A DNA stretch of 64,000 nucleotides from Cellulomonas sp. P24. Its GTDB lineage: Bacteria; Actinomycetota; Actinomycetes; Actinomycetales; Cellulomonadaceae. Below are positions 42,986-54,812 of the stretch, in pieces. The DNA is taken from NCBI RefSeq assembly GCF_024704385.1, contig NZ_JAJDFX010000002.1, positions 3,410,001 to 3,474,000 of the forward strand, given 5' to 3'. The stretch's first letter is position 1. Every line of letters starts with the position of its first letter. The translations under genes were made by a program, and so were the position numbers. The notes beneath the pieces are model-generated. The model had not been told where the DNA came from, ran no database searches, and was given only the letters and a program-made list of their open reading frames with translations.

Positions 42986-44698
42986 ATGGCTACGTCGTCG
43001 TCCGCAGACCCGATCGATCTCAAGCCGCGCAGCCGCCAGGTGACCGACGGTGTCGAGGCCACGGCCTCGCGCGGGATGCTCCGCGCCGTCGGACTCGGCG
43101 ACGAGGACTTCGCCAAGCCGCAGATCGGCGTCGCGAGCTCGTGGAACGAGATCACGCCGTGCAACCTGTCTCTCGACCGGCTGGCGAAGGCGGCCAAGAA
43201 CGGCGTCCACGCCGCCGGCGGCTACCCGCTCGAGTTCGGCACCATCTCGGTCTCCGACGGCATCTCGATGGGGCACGAGGGCATGCACTTCTCGCTCGTC
43301 TCGCGGGACATCATCGCGGACAGCGTCGAGACGGTCATGATGGCGGAGCGGCTCGACGGCTCGGTGCTGCTCGCCGGTTGCGACAAGTCCCTGCCGGGGA
43401 TGCTCATGGCGGCGGCCCGGCTCGATCTCGCGTCGGTCTTCCTGTACGCCGGGTCGACCATGCCGGGCTTCGTCACCCTCGAGGACGGCAGCGAGAAGCA
43501 GGTCACCATCATCGACGCCTTCGAGGCCGTCGGCGCCTGCGCGCGCGGGCTGATGAGCACGGAGGACCTCGGTCGCATCGAGCGCGCGATCTGCCCGGGC
43601 GAAGGGGCCTGCGGCGGGATGTACACGGCCAACACGATGGCGTCGGTCGCCGAGGCGATCGGGATGTCGCTGCCGGGATCGGCCGCCCCGCCGTCGGCGG
43701 ATCGCCGTCGCGACAGCTTCGCGGTGCGCTCGGGCGAGGCCGTCGTGAACCTGCTCCGGCTGGGCATCACCGCCCGGCAGATCATGACCAAGGACGCCTT
43801 CGAGAACGCGATCTCCGTGGTGATGGCCTTCGGTGGCTCGACGAACGCGGTGCTGCACCTCCTGGCGATCGCGCACGAGGCCGAGGTCGATCTGACGCTG
43901 GACGACTTCACGCGGGTCGCGGCGCGGGTTCCGCACCTCGGCGACCTGAAGCCGTTCGGTCGGTACGTGATGAACGACGTCGACCGCATCGGCGGCGTGC
44001 CCGTGGTCATGAAGGCCCTGCTCGACGCCGGCCTCCTGCACGGGGACTGCCTCACGGTGACGGGTCGGACCGTGGCGGAGAACCTCGCCGCGGTGAACCC
44101 GCCGGACCCCGACGGCAAGATCCTGCGGGCGCTGGACAACCCGATCCACGCGACGGGCGGCATCACGATCCTCAAGGGCTCGCTCGCCCCGGACGGCGCC
44201 GTCGTGAAGTCAGCCGGCTTCGACTCGGACGTGTTCGAGGGCACGGCACGAGTGTTCGAACGCGAGCGCGCCGCCCTGGACGCGCTCGAGGACGGCACGA
44301 TCGTCGCCGGCGACGCCGTCGTCATCCGCTACGAGGGCCCGAAGGGAGGGCCCGGCATGCGGGAGATGCTGGCGATCACGGGTGCGATCAAGGGGGCGGG
44401 CCTCGGCAAGGACGTGCTGCTCCTGACGGACGGCCGCTTCTCCGGCGGCACCACCGGGCTGTGCGTCGGGCACGTCGCCCCCGAGGCCGTCGACGGCGGA
44501 CCGATCGCCTTCATCCGCGACGGTGACCGCATCCGGCTGAACGTTCCCGAGGCGAGGCTCGACCTGCTCGTCGACGAGGCCGAGCTGGAGGAGCGCAAGA
44601 CCGGATGGGCGCCGCTGCCGAACGCATTCACGCGTGGGGTCCTGGCGAAGTACGTCAAGCTCGTGCAGTCGGCGAGCACCGGAGCGGTGCTCGGCTGA
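42986..44698 (+). CDS. ilvD: Dihydroxy-acid dehydratase IlvD
   Basis: Dehydrates dihydroxyvalerate and dihydroxymethylvalerate in valine and isoleucine synthesis. 570 residues, typical. Iron-sulfur cysteines appear in [32 protein letters not shown] and [39 protein letters not shown] is the C-terminal signature. ATG 42986 follows a -10 by 7 nt. It precedes the ilvBNC leader by about 170 bp and is probably a separate transcript. Confidence 0.95.
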
Positions 44699-44847
44699 CA
44701 CCGGTCGCGTCCGGCACGGCACGGTACGGCACCGGGTGGGCGTCGGATCGGCCCGACCCGTCTCGGCCCGGAACCGAGCGGGGATCATCGCCCGGGCGCT
44801 CGAAGTGTGGACGCGTGAACCATGATGTGAGATCGCAGGTCGTAGAC

Positions 44848-44876
44848 GTGACATCGGGCTGCAGCGGGCGTAGTGT
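44848..44876 (+). promoter_or_regulatory. ilvBN(C) promoter
   Basis: GTGACA (44848-44853), exactly 17 bp, then TAGTGT (44871-44876), 7 nt before the GTG of the leader peptide. The transcript would be leaderless, starting at the leader-peptide codon. 44699-44847 holds nothing else evident. Confidence 0.75.
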
Positions 44877-44883
44877 CCTTCGC

Positions 44884-44928
44884 GTGCAGACGATCGTGGT
44901 CGTAGTACTTCCGGGGCGCGCTGGCTGA
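44884..44928 (+). CDS. ilv attenuator leader peptide
   Basis: GTG-started 14-codon frame [14 protein letters not shown]. It has six consecutive branched-chain codons (Ile, four Val, Leu) followed by a rho-independent terminator 35 nt downstream. Scarcity of charged Ile, Val or Leu tRNA would stall the ribosome here and allow readthrough into ilvB. Attenuation of ilvB by such leaders is established in Actinobacteria. Confidence 0.85.
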
Positions 44929-44959
44929 CCGCCAGAAGTCATCGGTCTCGTCAGCGCGC
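44916..44959 (+). other. Attenuator pause/alternative hairpin
   Basis: GCGCGCTG (44916-44923) pairs with CAGCGCGC (44952-44959), enclosing a small CTGGC/GCCAG hairpin (44921-44935) that is mutually exclusive with part of it. The 5' arm lies inside the last leader-peptide codons, so ribosome position would decide which forms. Confidence 0.55.
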
Positions 44960-44962
44960 TCA

Positions 44963-45000
44963 CCCCTCGCCTTGCCCTTCACGGGCCGAGGGGTTTTTTT
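44963..45000 (+). terminator. ilv attenuator terminator
   Basis: CCCCTCG (44963-44969) pairs with CGAGGGG (44987-44993); an inner GCCC/GGGC extends it. Seven T (44994-45000) follow. It lies between the leader peptide and ilvB, 50 bp before the ilvB start. Confidence 0.88.
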
Positions 45001-45049
45001 GTGCCAGCACCACCTGCACCACCCGTGTACCGACGTCAGGGAGAATCCG

Positions 45050-46912
45050 ATGGTCCAGGGCCCACACCCCGCGCCTCCACGCAGCGTGCCGCCGGCCGCT
45101 GCGAGCACCCGTCCGTCCGGTGAGCCGACGCGGCTCGCGCCGGTCGATGGCGTCGTCGCACCGGTCCAGGTCACCGGTGCCCAGTCGATCGTCCGGTCGC
45201 TCGAGGAGGCCGGTGTCGAGGTCGTGTTCGGCATCCCCGGCGGTGCGATCCTTCCGACGTACGACCCGCTGATGGACTCCACCCGGCTGCGTCACATCCT
45301 CGTCCGTCACGAGCAGGGCAGCGGTCACGCCGCCTCCGGGTACGCGCACGCGACCGGTCGCGTCGGGGTGTGCATGGCGACATCCGGACCCGGGGCGACC
45401 AACCTCGTGACGCCGCTCGCGGACGCCAACATGGACTCGATCCCGGTGGTCGCGATCACCGGCCAGGTGGCGGCCTCGTTGATCGGCACCGATGCCTTCC
45501 AGGAGGCCGACACCCTCGGCATCACGCTCCCGGTGACGAAGCACAACTACCTGGTGACCAACGCCGACGACATCCCGCGGGTGATCGCCGAGGCGTTCCA
45601 CATCGCCGCGAGCGGGCGCCCCGGACCGGTGCTCGTCGACATCGCGAAGTCGGCCATGCAGGCGACGACGACCTTCTCGTGGCCGCAGACGCTCGACCTG
45701 CCGGGGTACCACCCCGTGACCAAGCCGCACGCGAAGCAGATCCGCGAGGCCGCTCGCCTGCTGGCGACCGCCCGGCGCCCGGTGCTCTACGTCGGTGGCG
45801 GGATCATCCGCGCCGGTGCGTCCGCCGAGCTGCGGCGGCTGACCGACGAGAGCGGCGCGCCGGTCGTGACCACGCTGATGGCCCGGGGTGCTCTGCCGGA
45901 CTCGCACCCGCAGCACCTCGGGATGCCCGGCATGCACGGCACCGTCCCGGCAGTCGCTGCGCTGCAGCGCGCCGACCTGATCGTGGCGCTCGGGGCGCGG
46001 TTCGACGACCGCGTCACGGGGAAGCTCAGCTCGTTCGCACCGAACGCGACGATCGTCCACGCGGACATCGACCCGGCCGAGATCGGCAAGAACAGGGCCG
46101 TCGACGTGCCGATCGTCGGCGACCTGCGCGAGGTCATCGCGGACCTCCTGCCCGAGCTCGCGCGCGAGCACGGCCAGCACGGCAAGCCGGACCTCGAGGG
46201 CTGGTGGCGGCAGATCAACGAGTGGCGCACCACGTTCCCGCTCGGGTTCGACGAGCCGGAGGACGGGCACCTCGCGCCGCAGCACGTGATCTCCCGGATC
46301 AGCGAGCTGACGGGACCGGAGGCGATCTACGTCGCCGGCGTCGGCCAGCACCAGATGTGGGCGTCGCAGTTCATCCAGTTCGAGCGCCCGAACTCGTGGC
46401 TGAACTCCGGCGGTCTCGGCACGATGGGCTTCTCGGTGCCGGCCGCGATGGGGGCCAAGGTCGGCGCGCCGGACCGCACGGTCTGGTCGATCGACGGCGA
46501 CGGCTGCTTCCAGATGACCAACCAGGAGCTCGCGACCTGCGCCATCAACGACATCCCGATCAAGGTCGCGGTGATCAACAACTCGTCCCTGGGGATGGTC
46601 CGCCAGTGGCAGACCCTGTTCTACGAGTCCCGGTACTCCAACACGGACCTGCACACCGGTCACGGCACCGCGCGCATCCCGGACTTCGTCAAGCTCGCCG
46701 AGGCCTACGGCTGCGTCGGTCTGAGGTGCGAGACGAAGGCAGACGTCGACGCCACGATCAAGCGGGCGCTCGAGATCAACGACCAGCCGGTCGTGGTGGA
46801 CTTCACGGTCTCGCGTGACGCGATGGTCTGGCCGATGGTGGCTGCGGGCGTGAGCAACGACGACATCCAGTACGCCCGGGGCATCAGCCCGGCGTGGGAC
46901 CGCGAGGAGTAG
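45050..46912 (+). CDS. ilvB: Acetolactate synthase large subunit
   Basis: First common enzyme of valine and isoleucine synthesis: condenses pyruvate with pyruvate or 2-oxobutyrate using thiamine diphosphate. 620 residues; ATG 45050 with AGGGAGA upstream. A Pro/Ala-rich N-terminal extension of about 45 residues precedes the core. The catalytic Glu lies in [20 protein letters not shown]; the thiamine-diphosphate motif is [20 protein letters not shown] to NNSSLGM. The gap to ilvN is 4 nt. Expression should be under attenuation. Confidence 0.95.
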
Positions 46913-46916
46913 GACG

Positions 46917-48616
<1,700 letters not shown>

Positions 48617-48651
48617 GAGGTCGAGCCGGGTGCTTCCCGAGTGTGGTGCTG

Positions 48652-48701
48652 GGGAAGTGCCGGGCGCTGACCGAGTGGTCCGTGAGGGACGAGCGGCCCG
48701 G
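48652..48701 (+). repeat. 50-bp direct repeat, copy 2
   Basis: Perfect copy of 48567-48616, intergenic between ilvC and the ASCH gene. Confidence 0.95.
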
Positions 48702-48732
48702 ACCTGACCTGCGCGTGCAGGACAGGTCCGGG
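48697..48732 (+). terminator. Strong hairpin after ilvC
   Basis: CCCGGACCTG-A-CCTGC and GCAGG-A-CAGGTCCGGG form a near-perfect stem of about 16 bp with a GCGT loop. No U tract. A likely end of the ilvBNC transcript; its left foot overlaps the second repeat copy. Confidence 0.65.
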
Positions 48733-48754
48733 AAGCCGAGGAGAGGTGGGCGAT

Positions 48755-49297
48755 GTGTCGACGGACGACCAGGTCGAAGCCGACGCCGACGAGATCGCCT
48801 CGTTCTGGGAGCTCGCGCGTGTGCGGGCGGGGCTGGGCCGGCTCGCGGTGGTGACCGGGGCCGGGGCTGCGGCCAGCGTCCCGCCCCCTGCCTGGGCCTT
48901 CGGTGACACCCCTGAGGCGGCGGACACGCTCGTCGGCCTCGTCCTGACCGGGGCGAAGACGGCGACGGTGTCCCCGGTGGCGGAGTACGAGGCGTCGGGT
49001 GCGGCGTTCCCGTCGGTCGGCGACCTGGCGATCGTGCTCGACGGTCGGGCGCACCCCCGTGCGCTGATCCGGACGACCGGCGTGCGCGTCGCCCGGTTCA
49101 TGGAGGTCGACGCGGCCCATGCGTGGGCCGAGGGCGAGGGTGACCGCAGCCTCGAGTCGTGGCGGGCGGTGCACGAGGAGTACTACCGACGATCGGCGAG
49201 GTCGGGGGGTGTCGAGTTCGGGCCGGACATGGAGCTCGTGCTCGAGACCTTCGAGGTGAGGTTCCCGCCGCGTTCGTCGCGCCCCGCACGTGGGTGA
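48755..49297 (+). CDS. ASCH-domain protein
   Basis: 180 residues. GTG 48755 is preferred to the GTG at 48746 because GGAGAGG (48740-48746) then has 8-nt spacing. The ASCH fold (PUA-like, predicted RNA binding) shows LVLTGAKTATVSPVAEYEAS and PRALIRTTGVRVARFMEVDA, then AHAWAEGEGDRSLESWRAVH. The N-terminal helix is SFWELARVRAGL. These proteins are thought to bind RNA or modified nucleotides; no specific role is visible here between ilvC and leuB. Confidence 0.82.
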   Translation: MSTDDQVEADADEIASFWELARVRAGLGRLAVVTGAGAAASVPPPAWAFGDTPEAADTLVGLVLTGAKTATVSPVAEYEASGAAFPSVGDLAIVLDGRAHPRALIRTTGVRVARFMEVDAAHAWAEGEGDRSLESWRAVHEEYYRRSARSGGVEFGPDMELVLETFEVRFPPRSSRPARG

Positions 49298-49342
49298 GCG
49301 GTGCGGGCCGGCCGGTTTGCCCCGGCCGGCGAGGATCAACCG

Positions 49343-49370
49343 GTGGGACAGTCGTCCCACTCGGTGGGAC
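49343..49370. promoter_or_regulatory. Candidate operator at the leuB promoter
   Basis: GTGGGAC (49343), its inverse GTCCCAC (49354) and again GTGGGAC (49364): an inverted pair 4 nt apart plus a third copy 3 nt further. It covers the -35 region of the leuB promoter, so a bound protein would block or recruit polymerase. It could also form a hairpin, but if leuB is leaderless it is not transcribed from its own promoter. Confidence 0.55.
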
Positions 49371-49377
49371 GGATGGA

Positions 49378-49383
49378 TAGGAT
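49378..49383 (+). promoter_or_regulatory. -10 of leaderless leuB promoter
   Basis: TAGGAT, 7 nt before ATG 49391. Confidence 0.6.
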
Positions 49384-49390
49384 CGCGAGC

Positions 49391-50452
49391 ATGACGCGCA
49401 CCATCAACCTGGCAGTCGTCGCGGGTGACGGCATCGGCACCGAGGTCGTCGAGCAGGGCCTCCTCGCCCTGGAAGCGGCGCTCTCCGGCACCGACGTCCG
49501 GGTGAAGACGACCGACTTCGACCTCGGTGCGCGCCGCTGGCACGCCACTGGCGAGACGCTGACGGACGAGGACCTCGCGGAGATCCGCACCCACGACGCG
49601 ATCCTTCTCGGGGCGATCGGCGACCCGGGCGTTCCGAGCGGTGTGCTCGAGCGGGGGCTGCTCCTCCGGCTCAGGTTCGCGCTGGACCACTACGTGAACC
49701 TTCGCCCCAGCAAGCTGTACCCGGGGGTGACCTCTCCGCTCGCTCACCCCGGTGACGTCGACTTCGTCGTCGTGCGCGAAGGCACCGAGGGCCCGTACGT
49801 CGGCAACGGGGGAGCGATCCGGGTCGGCACCCCGCACGAGGTCGCCAACGAGGTGAGCGTCAACACCGCGTTCGGGGTCGAGCGGGTCGTGCGGGACGCG
49901 TTCGCCCGCGCCGCTGCGCGACCGCGCAAGAAGCTCACCCTCGTGCACAAGCACAACGTGCTGGTGCACGCCGGTCACCTGTGGCGCCGGACGGTCGAGG
50001 CGGTCAACGCCGACTTCCCCGACGTCACGGTCGACTACCTCCACGTCGACGCGGCCACGATCTTCCTGGCGACCAACCCGTCGCGGTTCGACGTGATCGT
50101 CACTGACAACCTGTTCGGTGACATCCTCACCGACCTGGCGGCAGCGATCACCGGCGGCATCGGGCTGGCGGCCTCGGCGAACATCAACCCGGACCGGTAC
50201 GCCGACGGGACGAGCGTCGCCCCCTCGATGTTCGAGCCCGTGCACGGCTCGGCGCCGGACATCGCCGGCCAGGGCAAGGCGGACCCGACCGCGACTGTGC
50301 TGTCGGTCTCGCTCATGCTCGACCACCTGGGTCTCGGCGATGCCGCTGCTGCGGTGGAGCGTGCCGTCGCGGCCGACGTCCTCGAGCGAGGCGACCGAGT
50401 ACGGTCGACGACCGAGGTGGGCAAGGACCTCGCCGCGCGCATCGCCGGCTGA
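49391..50452 (+). CDS. leuB: 3-isopropylmalate dehydrogenase
   Basis: Oxidises and decarboxylates 3-isopropylmalate in leucine synthesis (and probably 3-methylmalate in the citramalate route). 353 residues, of the actinobacterial short type. Starts [20 protein letters not shown]; substrate/NAD site [20 protein letters not shown] and [23 protein letters not shown] 49391 follows TAGGAT by 7 nt. No leuCD lies nearby. Confidence 0.95.
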
Positions 50453-50505
50453 TCCTCCCGGCCCGTCCGACGCGCCGCCTGCGCCCCCTCGGTCGTCGTC
50501 ACCGG

Positions 50506-50511
50506 TACCGT
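50506..50511 (+). promoter_or_regulatory. Possible -10 for ilvE
   Basis: TACCGT about 42 nt before ATG 50553. A short GTG frame (VRSAQVQ, 50518-50541) begins 6 nt after it; whether it is translated is unknown. Confidence 0.35.
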
Positions 50512-50552
50512 CATCCCGTGCGCAGCGCGCAGGTCCAGTGAAAGGCCAGACC

Positions 50553-51677
50553 ATGAGCTCGACGACCGACACCCCCCAGACCTCGACGGATGCCGCCGGC
50601 GCGTTCGTCGTCCACCCGTCCGCCGCACCGGCGACGGACGAGGTGCGGACGGCGGCCCTCGCCGCGCCCAAGTTCGGCACGGTCTTCACCGACCACATGG
50701 CACGGATCAGCTGGAGCCAGCAGGCGGGGTGGCACGACCGGAGGGTCGAGGCCTACGGTCCGCTGCAGCTCGACCCGGCATGCGCCGTGCTCCACTACGC
50801 GCAGGAGATCTTCGAGGGCCTCAAGGCCTACCGGCACGCGGACGGCTCGGTATGGACGTTCCGTGCGGGGGCCAACGCGGCGCGGTTCGCGTCGTCGGCC
50901 CGGAGGCTCGCGCTGCCGGTGCTCCCCGAGCAGGACTTCCTCGCGGCGATCGAGGCGCTCGTCCGCACGGACGTCGACTGGGTGCCGTCCGGCGACGAGA
51001 TGTCGCTGTACCTGCGGCCGTTCATGTACGCCTCGGAGAACTTCATCGGGGTCCGGGCGACCCTCGAGGCCGAGTTCCTGGTGATCGCGTCGCCGGTCGG
51101 TCCGTACTTCGCCAGCGGTGTGCACCCCGTCTCGATCTGGGTGGCCGAGGACTACCACCGTGCGGGTGCCGGCGGGACCGGCGCCGCCAAGTGTGGCGGG
51201 AACTACGCCGCCAGCCTGGTGGCGCAGCAGGAGGCCTACACGCAAGGGTGCGAGCAGGTGTGCTTCCTCGACTCCGAGACGAACACGTATCTCGAGGAGC
51301 TCGGCGGGATGAACGTCTTCGTCGTCGGCGCCGACGGACGCGTCCTGACGCCCGAGCTGACCGGGTCGATCCTCGAGGGAGTGACGCGTTCCTCGATCAT
51401 CCAGCTCCTGACGGACGCCGGACGGACGGTCGAGGAGCGCCGGATCTCGCTGGCAGAGGTGCGTGCCGGGCTCGAGACCGGCGAGGTCGCGGAGGTGTTC
51501 GCCTGCGGGACGGCAGCCGTCGTGACGCCGATCGGTCGGTTGGCCGGGAACGGCTTCGACCTGACCGTCGGTGACGGGACGGCAGGCGCGGTCACGACGG
51601 CGATCAGGGCTGAGCTCACCGACATCCAGTACGGGCGTCTGGCCGACCGCCACGGGTGGATGCACCGCCTGGTCTGA
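50553..51677 (+). CDS. ilvE: Branched-chain amino acid aminotransferase
   Basis: Final transamination of valine, isoleucine and leucine synthesis. 374 residues, class IV PLP fold type. The PLP lysine lies in GTGAAKCGGNYAASLVAQQE (about residue 214); other family motifs are FEGLKAYRHADGSVWTFRAG and CFLDSETNTYLEELGGMNVF. ATG 50553 with AAAGG upstream. Separated from leuB by 100 bp. Confidence 0.95.
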   Translation: MSSTTDTPQTSTDAAGAFVVHPSAAPATDEVRTAALAAPKFGTVFTDHMARISWSQQAGWHDRRVEAYGPLQLDPACAVLHYAQEIFEGLKAYRHADGSVWTFRAGANAARFASSARRLALPVLPEQDFLAAIEALVRTDVDWVPSGDEMSLYLRPFMYASENFIGVRATLEAEFLVIASPVGPYFASGVHPVSIWVAEDYHRAGAGGTGAAKCGGNYAASLVAQQEAYTQGCEQVCFLDSETNTYLEELGGMNVFVVGADGRVLTPELTGSILEGVTRSSIIQLLTDAGRTVEERRISLAEVRAGLETGEVAEVFACGTAAVVTPIGRLAGNGFDLTVGDGTAGAVTTAIRAELTDIQYGRLADRHGWMHRLV

Positions 51678-51682
51678 CGTGT

Positions 51683-51712
51683 CCGACCCGTCCCGGGCCC
51701 CGGGGCGGTCGG
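51683..51712 (+). terminator. Hairpin after ilvE
   Basis: CCGACCCGTCCCGG pairs with CCGGGGCGGTCGG (one bulge), a strong GC hairpin 6 nt past the ilvE stop, without a U tract. Confidence 0.55.
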
Positions 51713-51753
51713 GCCACCGTCGACGTGAGCGGGTGTCAGGTGTCGGTCGCCTG

Positions 51754-51782
51754 TTCACGTCGACGACGCGCTGTGGCATGAT
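51754..51782 (+). promoter_or_regulatory. cimA leader promoter
   Basis: TTCACG (51754-51759), 17 bp, CATGAT (51777-51782), then 7 nt to the GTG of the leader peptide (51790). Same leaderless geometry as the ilv leader. Confidence 0.6.
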
Positions 51783-51789
51783 GACCCAC

Positions 51790-51819
51790 GTGACGCAGTA
51801 CCAGCTCATTATCGAGTAG
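51790..51819 (+). CDS. cimA attenuator leader peptide
   Basis: Nine-codon frame MTQYQLIIE starting with GTG 7 nt after a -10 hexamer and ending in TAG. It contains Leu-Ile-Ile as consecutive codons, right before two stable hairpins and a U tract. Since the following gene is citramalate synthase, the first enzyme of a threonine-independent isoleucine route, stalling at Ile (or Leu) codons would be a sensible signal. In-frame ATG codons at 51778 and 51781 would give a 12-13 residue form. Confidence 0.65.
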   Translation: MTQYQLIIE

Positions 51820-51844
51820 CGCGTTCGGCACGAGCCGAGCGCGC
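51819..51844 (+). other. cimA leader hairpin 1
   Basis: An 11-bp stem GCGCGTTCGGC / GCCGAGCGCGC with an ACGA loop, beginning at the last base of the leader stop codon. A ribosome at the stop codon would prevent it from forming. Confidence 0.7.
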
Positions 51845-51873
51845 AGACCTCCCGTACCCCGGGGGGTCTTTTT
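51845..51873 (+). terminator. cimA attenuator terminator
   Basis: AGACCTCCC / GGGGGGTCT (9 bp with one T-G pair) with a 7-nt loop and five T, directly abutting hairpin 1 and about 120 bp before cimA. 51874-51995 shows only an ordinary leader with GAAGAGAG before the start. Confidence 0.85.
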
Positions 51874-51995
51874 GTTGTCGGGCACCACCCCGTCCGCGAC
51901 AGAGCCGATCACCCAGCCGGCACCACCCCCGTCGGCCTTCCCCGTCAGGAGAGGTGATCGGTGTTCGCCCTCACCTCGCACGAAGAGAGCCTCAC

Positions 51996-53612
51996 GTGAC
52001 CACGAGCACCAGCGAGCCGTTCCACGTCTACGACACCACGCTGCGCGACGGAGCACAGCAGGAGGGGATGAACCTGACCGTCCAGGACAAGCTCGCGATC
52101 GCGCCGTTGCTCGACGAGCTCGGGGTCGGGTACATCGAGGGCGGCTGGCCCGGGGCCATCCCGAAGGACACGGAGTTCTTCGCCCGGGCGGCGAAGGAGC
52201 TCGAGTTCAGGCACGCGGTGCTGACGGCGTTCGGAGCCACCCGCAAGCCCGAGAGCAGGGCCTGGGACGACGCGCAGGTCCGCGCCCTGCTCGACTCGCA
52301 GGCCGAGGTCGTCACGCTCGTCGCGAAGAGCGACATCCGCCACGTCGAGCGTGCGCTCCGGACGACCGGCGCGGAGAACCTGGAGATGATCACTGACACC
52401 ATCAGGTTCCTCGTCGGGGAGGGGCGTCGGGTCGTGTTGGATGCCGAGCACTTCTTCGACGGGTACCGGTTCGACCCGGAGTACGCGCGCAAGGCGGTGT
52501 TCGCCGCGTTCGCTGCCGGCGCCGAGGTGGCGACCCTGTGCGACACGAACGGCGGGATGCTCCCGGACTGGGTCACCGCGGTGGTCACCGAGCTGACGGA
52601 GTCGATGAGCGAGGCCGGCGTGACCGGGCGCCTGGGCATCCACGCGCACAACGACTCCGGTTGCGCCGTCGCGAACTCGCTCGCAGCGGTGAACGCCGGG
52701 TGCACGCACGTCCAGGGGACCGTCAACGGCTACGGCGAGCGCACGGGCAACGCCGACCTCCTCACCGTGGTCGCGAACCTCGAGCTCAAGGGCGGGCTGT
52801 CGCTGCTGTCCGGCAACGGCCTCACCGAGGCCACCCGGATCGCGCACGCGATCAGCGAGATCACCAACATCTCCCCGTTCGCCCGCCAGCCGTACGTCGG
52901 CGCGAGCGCGTTCGCGCACAAGGGCGGTCTGCACGCGAGCGCGATCAAGGTCGACCCCGACCTCTACCAGCACATCGACCCGCAGCGCGTCGGGAACGAC
53001 ATGCGCATGCTCATCTCCGACATGGCGGGTCGTGCGTCGATCGAGCTCAAGGGTCGCGAGTTCGGGTACGACCTGTCCGGTCAGAGCGACGTCCTCACCC
53101 GGGTGACCACCAGGGTCAAGGATGCCGAGGCGCGCGGGTACACCTACGACGCGGCCGACGCGTCCTTCGCGCTGGTGCTGCACGAGGAGGTCGCGGGCGC
53201 ACGCCCCGACTACTTCTCGGTGGAGAGCTGGCGCGCGATCGTCGAGCGAGTCGGCGGTCGCGGCGTCGAGGCGACCGCCGAGGCGACCGTCAAGCTGCGC
53301 GCGGGTGGTGAGCGGATCGTCTCGACGGGGGAGGGGAACGGCCCGGTCAACGCGCTCGACCACGCTCTCCGTCTCGCGCTCGGGCGGGTGTACCCGGAGA
53401 TCGAGCACTTCGAGCTGATCGACTTCAAGGTGCGCATCCTCGACGCGATGCAGGGCACGGACGCGGTCACACGTGTGCTCATCGAGACGTCCGACGGCGA
53501 GTCCACGTGGAGCACGGTGGGGGTCGGACCCAACCTCCTCGAGGCCTCCTGGGAGGCCCTGACCGACTCCGCGATCTTCGGTCTGCTCCACGCCGGCGTC
53601 GAACCCCGCTGA
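51996..53612 (+). CDS. cimA: Citramalate synthase
   Basis: Condenses pyruvate and acetyl-CoA to citramalate, giving 2-oxobutyrate for isoleucine without threonine. 538 residues, the length of the CimA (TIGR00977-type) branch rather than LeuA. GTG 51996 with GAAGAGAG upstream. The barrel starts FHVYDTTLRDGAQQEGMNLT and has the metal motif LGIHAHNDSGCAVANSLAAV; the lid region is AFAHKGGLHASAIKVDPDLY. The C-terminal LeuA_dimer-type regulatory domain (about 400-538, FELIDFKVRILDAM) is expected to bind isoleucine. It lies downstream of an attenuator. Confidence 0.92.
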   Translation: MTTSTSEPFHVYDTTLRDGAQQEGMNLTVQDKLAIAPLLDELGVGYIEGGWPGAIPKDTEFFARAAKELEFRHAVLTAFGATRKPESRAWDDAQVRALLDSQAEVVTLVAKSDIRHVERALRTTGAENLEMITDTIRFLVGEGRRVVLDAEHFFDGYRFDPEYARKAVFAAFAAGAEVATLCDTNGGMLPDWVTAVVTELTESMSEAGVTGRLGIHAHNDSGCAVANSLAAVNAGCTHVQGTVNGYGERTGNADLLTVVANLELKGGLSLLSGNGLTEATRIAHAISEITNISPFARQPYVGASAFAHKGGLHASAIKVDPDLYQHIDPQRVGNDMRMLISDMAGRASIELKGREFGYDLSGQSDVLTRVTTRVKDAEARGYTYDAADASFALVLHEEVAGARPDYFSVESWRAIVERVGGRGVEATAEATVKLRAGGERIVSTGEGNGPVNALDHALRLALGRVYPEIEHFELIDFKVRILDAMQGTDAVTRVLIETSDGESTWSTVGVGPNLLEASWEALTDSAIFGLLHAGVEPR

Positions 53613-53652
53613 CCCAGTCGTCCCCGAGCCGCCCGTGCCCGCACCCCAGGAC

Positions 53653-53713
53653 GCCGAGTGGAGCGATGTGCGGCGACACGCCCGCGTGTCGCACGCACAT
53701 CGCTCCACTCGGC
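53653..53713. repeat. 61-bp near-perfect palindrome
   Basis: Arms of 29 and 30 bp (GCCGAGTGGAGCGATGTGCG... and its inverse, ...CGCACATCGCTCCACTCGGC) with a 2-nt centre and only a mismatch/bulge near the tip. It lies between cimA and the lipoate-ligase gene. It could act as a terminator for cimA, but the length and symmetry look more like a REP-type dispersed palindrome. Confidence 0.8.
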
Positions 53714-53741
53714 GGACCGGGGGACGGGGTGGCGAGAGTCG

Positions 53742-53747
53742 TAGGAT
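53742..53747 (+). promoter_or_regulatory. -10 of leaderless promoter for the lipoate ligase-like gene
   Basis: TAGGAT, 6 nt before GTG 53754. Confidence 0.5.
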
Positions 53748-53753
53748 GACTTG

Positions 53754-54812
53754 GTGACGACAGTGCGCGGTGAGTACAAGGTGCCCGGTGGCAAGCTGGT
53801 GGCCGTCGACGTCGACAAGGACGGCGGCCGGCTCGCGTCGGTCCGGGTCAGCGGAGACTTCTTCCTCGAGCCGGACGAGGCCCTGGAGCGGATCGAAGCG
53901 GCCCTGACGGGGCTGTCGACCGACTCGAGCGTGGCGCAGCTGACCGCCGCGATCGATGCCGCCCTCGACTCGTCCGTGACCCTCGTCGGGTTCACCACCG
54001 AGTCGGTCGCGATCGCCGTCCGGCGCGCGCTGGGCCACGCGACCAGCTGGAGCGACCACGAGTTCACGATCATCCACGAGGGGCCGCAGCCTCCGGTGCT
54101 GCATGCAGCCCTCGACCAGGTGCTCGCCGAGGAGCTCGCGGCGGGCCGTCGTGGACCTACGCTGAGGTTCTGGGAGTGGGTCGATCCGGCGGTCGTGATC
54201 GGGTCGTTCCAGTCGCTCCGCAACGAGGTCGATCCGGAAGGCGCCGCACGGCACGGCATCACGGTCGTCCGGCGGATCTCCGGCGGCGGGGCGATGTTCA
54301 TGGAGGCCGGGAACTGCATCACGTTCTCCCTCGTCGTCCCGGCGTCGCTCGTCGACGGGCTGACGTTCGAGCAGTCGTACGCGTTCCTCGACGACTGGGT
54401 GCTCGGTGCCCTGGCCGACGTCGGCGTGACGGCCTCGTACGCCGGGTTGAACGACATCGCCTCACCGGCCGGGAAGATCGCCGGTGCCGCGCAGAAGCGC
54501 CTGGCGGGCGGGGCCGTGCTGCACCACGTGACCATGGCCTACGACATCGACGCAGACAAGATGCTCGAGGTGCTGCGCATCGGCCGCGAGAAGCTGTCGG
54601 ACAAGGGCACGACGAGTGCGAACAAGCGGGTGGACCCGGTGCGCTCGCAGACAGGAATCCCCCGGGAGGCCGTCATCGACGCATTCACGCGCCACTTCCG
54701 CACGCGCTACTCCACCGTCGACGGAGCGCTCACCGTGGACGAGCTGAATCGGGCCGAGGCGCTGGTCGCGACGAAGTTCGGCACCCCGGAATGGACAGCC
54801 CGCGTCCCGTGA
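53754..54812 (+). CDS. Lipoate-protein ligase A-like protein with N-terminal accessory domain
   Basis: 352 residues. Residues 1-90 (EYKVPGGKLVAVDVDKDGGR, VSGDFFLEPDEALERIEAAL) match the small accessory domain that is C-terminal in E. coli LplA but N-terminal here. The catalytic domain has the BPL/LPL pattern: FWEWVDPAVVIGSFQSLRNE, VRRISGGGAMFMEAGNCITF and the lysine motif PAGKIAGAAQKRLAGG. Attachment of lipoate or octanoate to 2-oxoacid dehydrogenases and GcvH is inferred. This order is common in Actinobacteria. GTG 53754 is set by the -10 six nt upstream. Confidence 0.85.
   Translation: MTTVRGEYKVPGGKLVAVDVDKDGGRLASVRVSGDFFLEPDEALERIEAALTGLSTDSSVAQLTAAIDAALDSSVTLVGFTTESVAIAVRRALGHATSWSDHEFTIIHEGPQPPVLHAALDQVLAEELAAGRRGPTLRFWEWVDPAVVIGSFQSLRNEVDPEGAARHGITVVRRISGGGAMFMEAGNCITFSLVVPASLVDGLTFEQSYAFLDDWVLGALADVGVTASYAGLNDIASPAGKIAGAAQKRLAGGAVLHHVTMAYDIDADKMLEVLRIGREKLSDKGTTSANKRVDPVRSQTGIPREAVIDAFTRHFRTRYSTVDGALTVDELNRAEALVATKFGTPEWTARVP

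Follow-up and report, generated by a model that had tools for sequence, protein, structure and literature searches.

In the classical enterobacterial attenuators of trp, ilv, and his, the position of the ribosome on sensor codons decides the fate of a transcription terminator, and the leaders use mutually exclusive 1:2, 2:3, and 3:4 pairing, often with many sensor codons. The leader described here, which lies upstream of a gene for citramalate synthase (cimA), differs from these in having two adjoining hairpins and one to four (mostly two or three) Ile codons.

Leaders known in actinobacteria belong to ilvB, leuS, leuA, trp, and cys genes, according to excerpts of three papers (PMC1262725, PMC10272879, and PMC8079986). 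By analogy, the nearest precedent for an opposition of two hairpins such as we propose is C. glutamicum ilvBNC. As excerpts of PMC11857589 and PMC10272879 describe it, the ilvBNC/ilvB-II motif resembles the cimA leader in having an ORF that starts at or near the transcript start and carries branched-chain codons, and ilvBNC also has a hairpin near the sensor codons and an adjoining terminator; its control codons are named there as CUU and GUA. In the excerpt of PMC11857589, the antiterminator and terminator of ilvBNC, which precede ilvB, share the trinucleotide GCC and compete. The cimA leaders differ in this respect, since 157 of 175 have no pair that both hairpins could share and none has three, and they differ also in the gene (cimA) and the residue (Ile). 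They do have the adjacent hairpins that characterize the ilvBNC “fast” attenuator, with a gap of 0 to 2 nt in 175 of 175.

The leuS leader LeuL2 of Streptomyces (MRAVRLLLSEPR) is likewise a leaderless short ORF followed by a hairpin and a U-stretch (excerpts of PMC8079986 and PMC1262725), but it senses Leu and precedes a tRNA synthetase gene (PMC8079986, in the same excerpt). The LEU element of actinobacterial leuA resembles the scaffold reported here in its short ORF, its run of Leu codons, and the paralogous enzyme gene that it precedes. However, the excerpt of PMC1262725 describes a pseudoknot in which the Leu codons pair with a Shine-Dalgarno box to form the base stem, whereas the cimA scaffold, in its minimum-energy pseudoknot-free fold, shows two simple hairpins, the second of them a terminator; the S. 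lividans paper, as excerpted, describes the LEU element as lacking a typical terminator (PMC8079986). None of the 8 leader peptides listed for S. lividans in that excerpt belongs to cimA, and a cimA leader is absent from the descriptions in the excerpts of PMC1262725 and PMC10272879. The main texts of PMC8079986, PMC2965389, and PMC4833913 contain neither cimA nor citramalate as a word. Among the matches listed in searches of the open-access literature, we found no report of a leader or of attenuation for cimA or citramalate (subscription papers may hold one), and no clear precedent for an abutting hairpin as an antiterminator was among the matches listed. What appears to be new here is cimA as the gene, the proposed specificity for Ile, and the absence, in most leaders, of a shared strand; ribosome-mediated attenuation by leaderless ORFs is known.

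The cimA leader and its two hairpins

The window, which is the whole stretch of DNA that was analysed (64,000 nucleotides), has the following features at this locus.

50118-51677, plus strand: ORF ending with ilvE (branched-chain aminotransferase), the upstream gene (NF009897, 487.5 bits, cut-off 307); the coordinates are those of the ORF and not of a mapped ilvE start
51772-51782, plus strand: extended -10-like promoter element TGTGGCATGAT, read from the sequence, its end 7 nt before the start codon
51790-51819, plus strand: leader ORF MTQYQLIIE*, GTG start, probably leaderless; 175 of 175 distinct cimA leaders have an ORF of this kind, with its end at hairpin 1 or within it
51808-51813, plus strand: ATT ATC (Ile-Ile), the putative sensor codons; counted from the A of ATC, pairing in hairpin 1 begins 8 nt downstream
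51819-51844, plus strand: hairpin 1, 11 bp with one G-U pair, opening at the G of the TAG stop (folding, covariation)
51845-51869, plus strand: intrinsic terminator stem-loop, with a 0-nt gap to hairpin 1 (folding, terminator scan, covariation)
51870-51877, plus strand: U-tract TTTTGTTG behind the terminator stem, kept in 18 aligned leader rows
51996-53612, plus strand: cimA, citramalate synthase (TIGR00977, 601.7 bits, cut-off 450); GTG at 51996 is taken as the start, with an alternative GTG at 51954

The initial annotation had placed a nine-codon leaderless peptide, an 11-bp hairpin at its stop codon, and a terminator directly behind that hairpin upstream of cimA. All of these are confirmed: the ORF, read from the sequence as GTG...TAG, has nine codons, hairpin 1 begins at the last base of its stop codon, the terminator abuts it, and the identity of the downstream gene is well above the TIGR00977 cut-off. 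That the ORF is leaderless is probable from the -10 spacing and its conservation. The -10-like hexamer is CATGAT (51777-51782), with TGTGG just 5' of it and 7 nt between it and the GTG. A consensus (sigma-70) promoter scan of the leader region returned 0 promoters, so the transcript start is one that we infer, and the box was called because the same placement is seen in the sequences of relatives.

For the counts across relatives, 184 cimA leaders were reduced to 175 distinct ones by removal of 9 duplicates, and four leaders that do not precede cimA (L152, L161, L158, and L159) were left out. Leader ORFs were chosen by a -10 box and a stop codon near hairpin 1 and not by the presence of Ile. 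Start codons in this set are GTG in 96 and ATG in 79, and the ORFs are mostly 8 to 16 codons long. The best-scoring box lies 6 to 10 nt before the start codon, at 6 or 7 nt in 139 of the 175, a count that is partly by construction because the ORF was picked via its box.

The 151-nt leader stretch folds at -72 kcal/mol compared to -56.3 ± 4.2 for shuffled sequences (z = -3.7), with 1 of 200 shuffles as good, and the minimum-energy pseudoknot-free fold consists of simple hairpins. Both hairpins covary. In a MAFFT alignment made without fitting to the structure, pairing holds in 98.4% of cells and five pairs change on both sides, and neither value was reached in any of 500 shuffles. Among 79 leaders fitted to the covariance model (as were alignments A3, A4, A6, and A7), 14 of 20 pairs change on both sides, in 155 cells, compared to 0 of 500 shuffles and to at most 13 cells in slid controls. 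The lowest four pairs of hairpin 1, GCGC/GCGC (51819-51822 and 51841-51844), are nearly invariant, and the covariation lies in the upper part, where the loop and the upper stem vary in both sequence and length. The GCGC base is kept even where it is translated, in leaders with a stop codon further downstream, and its near-invariance exceeds what pairing alone demands; much of the terminator sequence is likewise more conserved than pairing requires.

In 144 of the 175 distinct leaders the terminator follows hairpin 1 with a gap of 0 nt; a single nucleotide separates them in 30 leaders, and two nucleotides do so in the remaining one. Extending hairpin 1 contiguously into the foot of the terminator would add no pair in 157, one pair in 9, two pairs in 9, and three pairs in none. 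Because the hairpins are so close and mostly have no pairs that both could share, a classical exchange of strands between them is unlikely. A search of window positions 43000 to 54000 against Rfam at E values up to 5 gave two weak matches elsewhere, both below the gathering score, and none at the cimA leader, and six relatives of the leader had no match at the gathering score.

Distribution across actinobacteria

The initial annotation had staked its reading on conservation of the peptide and hairpins in relatives, and the element is in fact widely conserved. A DNA query comprising the leader and the start of the gene matches 119 of 121 genomes of the family, and a strict pattern finds the leader in 29 of 30 fetched family loci, with L017 as the exception. 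A covariance model (R1) built from a MAFFT alignment of 18 leaders has one real match in the window's own genome, at 94.3 bits, the next match scoring 14.9 bits. Within the order, R1 matches 165 of 396 genomes and 62 of 110 genera. Sixty of these leaders were picked by hand from the 165 genomes so as to include at least one from most matched genera together with weak matches, and cimA lies downstream in 60 of 60.

A second model (R2), built from 79 leaders, matches 270 of 394 genomes and 111 of 138 genera of the class at E values up to 0.1, some of these matches being before other genes. In the class set, which consists of the 28 best-scoring new R2 loci and 20 hand-picked ones, cimA is downstream in 44 of the 48 loci read. 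Across the phylum, R2 matches 63 of 198 genomes at E values up to 0.01. Since the sequences counted are related, all of these statistics overstate independence.

When loci were fetched by CimA protein alone, 61 of 80 named cimA loci were found to carry the element upstream on the same strand, among them loci from Cellulomonas, Cellulosimicrobium, Kribbella, Nonomuraea, Streptomyces, Micromonospora, Amycolatopsis, Pseudonocardia, and Kutzneria. This test is not wholly independent of the models, because at least 2 of the 61 (L232 and L234) coincide with training rows. The covariance search did not find the element at the other 19 of the 80. By eye, the end of ilvE lies upstream of cimA in 15 of these 19 (within about 30 nt in 13) and does not in 4, a pattern as expected if the leader is lost once cimA joins an operon. 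Among 34 genomes listed as lacking the element, the TIGR00977 test found cimA over the cut-off in 7 and none over the cut-off in 25; of the remaining two, one has a cimA copy cut by a contig end (G131) and the other matches ambiguously and has an internal stop (G129). The 7 complete cimA genes without the element lie, by eye, immediately behind ilvE in 4 cases and within about 90 nt of it in 1, and 2 do not follow it. For two of the 34 genomes a match did appear in another search: G156 (R1, E = 0.004) and G125 (R2, E = 5.8e-5).

Two sets of loci are unusual in other ways. Near-identical cimA leaders (L150 and L186) lie on two contigs of one genome (G720), which may have two cimA copies or be a mixed assembly. 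Two metagenome bins titled Bifidobacterium breve (L273 and L282) contain an actinobacterial cimA, with the leader present in L273, and their names look doubtful.

Putative sensor codons before cimA and before other genes

Ile codons precede hairpin 1 in 175 of 175 distinct cimA leaders. There is one such codon in 12 leaders and there are two in 108, three in 53, and four in 2, in agreement with the initial description of a minimal attenuator with very few sensor codons; the run of several sensor codons that is a classical trp-type trait was not found among these 175. The distance from the first base of the last Ile codon to the first paired base is most often 8 nt (133 leaders), followed by 11 nt (24 leaders); it is 9 or 10 nt in 13 leaders and some other value in 5. 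Among leaders from named Streptomyces, none of 15 has the 8-nt distance and 12 of 15 have 11 nt.

Codon use sets these Ile codons apart as well. ATT accounts for 215 of the 395 Ile codons in the 175 leaders, compared to 0 of 141 in seven coding sequences of the window. In a comparison with downstream cimA frames, which were picked by length and CimA motifs, ATT makes up 141 of 275 leader Ile codons versus 88 of 1726 (odds ratio, 19.6; Fisher P = 3e-77, a value that is too small because the leaders are related).

The initial annotation had named Leu-Ile-Ile as the regulatory codons and either tRNA(Ile) or tRNA(Leu) as the species sensed. Conservation supports the Ile half of this and not the Leu half. 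In a set of 125 leaders with duplicates kept (123 before cimA and 2 before a short protein, two ilvB leaders having been dropped from 127), the residue preceding the last Ile is Ile in 113, whereas the Leu position beyond it holds Leu in only 60 and is otherwise filled by Ile, Val, Thr, Met, Ser, or others. It is thus Ile and not Leu that is conserved, and Leu was rejected as the sensed residue. Nor is the abutment of the stop codon on hairpin 1, on which the initial annotation had relied, the key feature: the stop lies at or before the base of the hairpin in 116 of the 175 leaders and inside hairpin 1 in 59, with the Ile codons still just before the hairpin, which indicates that the place of the Ile codon is kept and that of the stop is not. 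In the window both features fall together, and variation among relatives tells them apart.

Leaders with the same scaffold were also found before other genes. The loci read were 16 from 17 genomes, weaker matches aside, and 14 of 17 new loci from the phylum, three loci of an apparently Streptomyces-type genus being left out. Downstream genes were named by BLAST of CimA or IlvB, and leuS and leuA were named by reading the translation. In ilvB leaders (e.g., MRIPRLVVG, MRFGILVLH, and MAQHVVVTERVG), the 8-nt place holds Val in 9, Ile in 6, and Leu in 5, i.e., one of these in 20 of 21, with 1 out of frame, and further Val and Leu codons come before it. Two leuS leaders found by the cimA model have runs of Leu, L195 (MRTTQLLLIEPR) and L198 (MRTTLLLTWPR), and look like relatives of LeuL2. 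By the model's hairpin base, the 8-nt place of L195 holds Ile and the 11-nt place Leu, with Leu codons before these. At a fixed offset, L158, L159, L198, and L322 are out of frame. Outside the class, a leuA leader (L311) carries Leu (MSQNLLLT), and a leader before a cimA whose product is 49% identical retains Ile (MSSQPAKPITTTAIIIC). The strongest evidence that the codons at the 8-nt place are the sensor is that they change with the downstream gene.

The window contains such an ilvB leader.

44884-45000, plus strand: ilvB leader of the same architecture, with an ORF at 44884-44928, a hairpin at 44914-44961, an abutting terminator at 44962-44994, and a T-tract

Here a CTT codon (Leu) precedes the GCGCGC core of the hairpin by 8 nt and the outermost predicted pair by 6 nt. 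The initial annotation had set the cimA leader apart from classical leaders such as this one, 7 kb away. The ilvB leader does have more sensor codons, but it is not of a different type, since its hairpin also abuts the terminator.

Three further loci are recorded as observations. L158 (1301-1381, minus strand) and L159 (1301-1383, minus strand) have an Ile scaffold before a short frame, some 100 residues long, that has no Pfam match, and in both genomes cimA is a separate gene behind a leader of its own (L189 and L191). Outside the class, L310 (1501-1579, minus strand) is a scaffold-like match with Leu-Leu-Ile before hairpin 1.

A proposed mechanism and its alternatives

Taken with the conservation described above, these features suggest that the cimA leader is a ribosome-mediated transcription attenuator tied to charged tRNA(Ile), with hairpin 1 opposing the terminator, a reading to which we assign a probability of about 80%. 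It draws on sequence, conservation, covariation, codon identity, and geometry, and from these we infer the start site, translation, stalling, the sign of the switch, and the steric opposition at the junction.

RNA polymerase would start at the GTG or beside it, and the nine codons would be translated by a 70S ribosome, as the -10 spacing and conservation suggest. When charged Ile-tRNA is short, the ribosome would wait with an Ile codon in its A site. Most leaders have the 8-nt distance, which would then set the first pair of the hairpin 11 nt 3' of the base that begins the P-site codon. According to an excerpt of PMC7282821, this is the length of mRNA that the bacterial channel accommodates beyond that base, and stem-loops 11 to 12 nt away inhibit binding of tRNA to the A site, an effect that is relieved at 13 nt. 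A ribosome waiting for Ile-tRNA should thus leave hairpin 1 intact, with its first pair at the mouth of the channel, where the hairpin might even prolong the wait. Contact with the channel mouth is not universal, given the 24 of 175 leaders at 11 nt, the 18 at other distances, and the lack of any named Streptomyces leader at 8 nt. When Ile is plentiful, the ribosome would reach the stop codon and melt the lower part of hairpin 1, melting beginning one translocation on.

As long as hairpin 1 is intact, the terminator would be unable to close at its foot within the RNA exit channel, leading to read-through and cimA expression, and a hairpin 1 opened by the ribosome would permit termination and turn cimA off. 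The two touching helices presumably could not both close where the terminator foot must form inside the polymerase. We take the sign of this switch from pathway logic and from the C. glutamicum ilvBNC precedent.

Partition functions were calculated for 127 leaders in three states (free, Ile-stalled, and with the ribosome at the stop), using masks of assumed ribosome coverage. Mean pairing of hairpin 1 is 0.94 free, 0.94 Ile-stalled, and 0.13 at the stop, and that of the terminator is 0.93, 0.94, and 0.92, respectively. In these models, hairpin 1 responds to the ribosome and there is no general competing helix. This is in line with the suggestion in the initial annotation that the position of the ribosome relative to hairpin 1 is the likely switch, and with its failure to find a textbook antiterminator. 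Terminator pairing falls below 0.5 in 2 leaders when free, in 0 when Ile-stalled, and in 4 at the stop, so a few leaders may fold otherwise. No general alternative antiterminator was found either by the partition functions (127 leaders) or by extension of hairpin 1 (175 leaders).

Two arrangements were tried and rejected. A classical strand-sharing antiterminator does not fit terminator pairing of 0.92 to 0.94 and the absence of a shareable pair in 157 of 175 leaders, and pairing of the hairpin 1 loop with the 3' arm of the terminator, as proposed for ilvB-II, does not fit loops that by eye are unconserved.

Attenuation by Ile could be correct and still involve a conventional alternative fold or tertiary contact that was missed, or the hairpins could compete, like those of C. 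glutamicum ilvBNC, through fraying of flanks that they share; the ilvBNC hairpins overlap by a trinucleotide according to the excerpt of PMC11857589. Eighteen of the 175 cimA leaders could form 1 or 2 extra pairs into the terminator foot, and the 4 of 127 leaders with low terminator pairing when the ribosome mask is at the stop, together with a fold search confined to pseudoknot-free structures, leave some room for such a contact. However, no contiguous extra pair is available in 157 of the 175, and terminator pairing averages >0.9 in all three ribosome states, and we regard this version as possible rather than probable. A switch of the opposite sign, in which hairpin 1 aids the terminator (e.g., by coaxial stacking) and a ribosome that opens it lowers termination, would make cimA inducible by Ile sufficiency or active translation. 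The 0-nt gap in 144 of 175 leaders would permit end-to-end stacking, and the computations leave the sign unfixed, but induction by an end product would run against pathway logic, scaffolds of a similar kind stand before ilvB, leuS, and leuA, and the similarly laid-out ilvBNC leader is derepressed by a weaker terminator (PMC11857589, excerpt), all of which makes a reversed sign improbable.

The remaining alternatives dispense with sensing of tRNA(Ile). It is very unlikely that hairpin 1 binds a protein or small molecule in the manner of a riboswitch, with the ORF merely exposing the hairpin: the GCGC base and much of the terminator sequence are conserved beyond pairing needs, as such binding might require, but there is no conserved unpaired core, the loop and upper stem are variable in sequence and length, the in-frame Ile codon is invariant, and Rfam gave no match at the leader (window positions 43000 to 54000) or in six relatives. 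Arrest of the ribosome by the peptide itself, through a C terminus such as LIIE and regardless of tRNA charging, would be consistent with the conserved portion of the peptide being its C-terminal part. Peptides of mostly 8 to 16 residues are, however, too short to fill the exit tunnel, the residues around Ile vary widely, the sensor residue changes with the downstream gene, and a rare synonymous codon is enriched for which a peptide effect has no need, so that arrest of this kind is highly unlikely. The element sits between ilvE and cimA in the window and might be thought to be just the 3' terminator of ilvE accompanied by a chance short ORF. This is scarcely credible when the in-frame Ile codons and the -10-like box are conserved and when cimA genes lacking the element mostly sit directly or almost directly behind ilvE (15 of 19 named loci and 5 of 7 complete genes, by eye).

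For the preferred reading, attenuation by charged tRNA(Ile), we tentatively suggest a more specific form, which we hold to be possible but doubtful. Hairpin 1, placed 8 nt after the sensor codon and 0 nt from the terminator, would have two jobs and would exchange no strand: it would slow Ile decoding at the channel mouth, and it would sterically hold the terminator foot open. One or two sensor codons would then suffice, because the hairpin itself slows decoding of Ile. The same scaffold would be re-addressed across Actinomycetota by a swap of codons, with Ile for cimA, Val, Leu, or Ile for ilvB, and Leu for leuS and leuA.

An attenuator at this position would place citramalate synthase, the enzyme that opens the threonine-independent route to isoleucine, under control in a large class that includes Streptomyces. 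The codon swaps suggest a readable code in which the sensed amino acid is given by the codon just ahead of the hairpin, at 8 nt in most cases, which would aid the annotation of leader ORFs and the deregulation of branched-chain pathways in actinobacterial producers. The apparent absence of the usual strand exchange also makes it testable whether a hairpin that merely touches a terminator can stop it from working.

Two short sequences recur near these leaders. GCACCACC occurs 3' of the terminator in both the cimA leader (51880-51889) and the ilvB leader (45007-45024) of the window, and GGGCACCACC is common to many leaders in the window's family.
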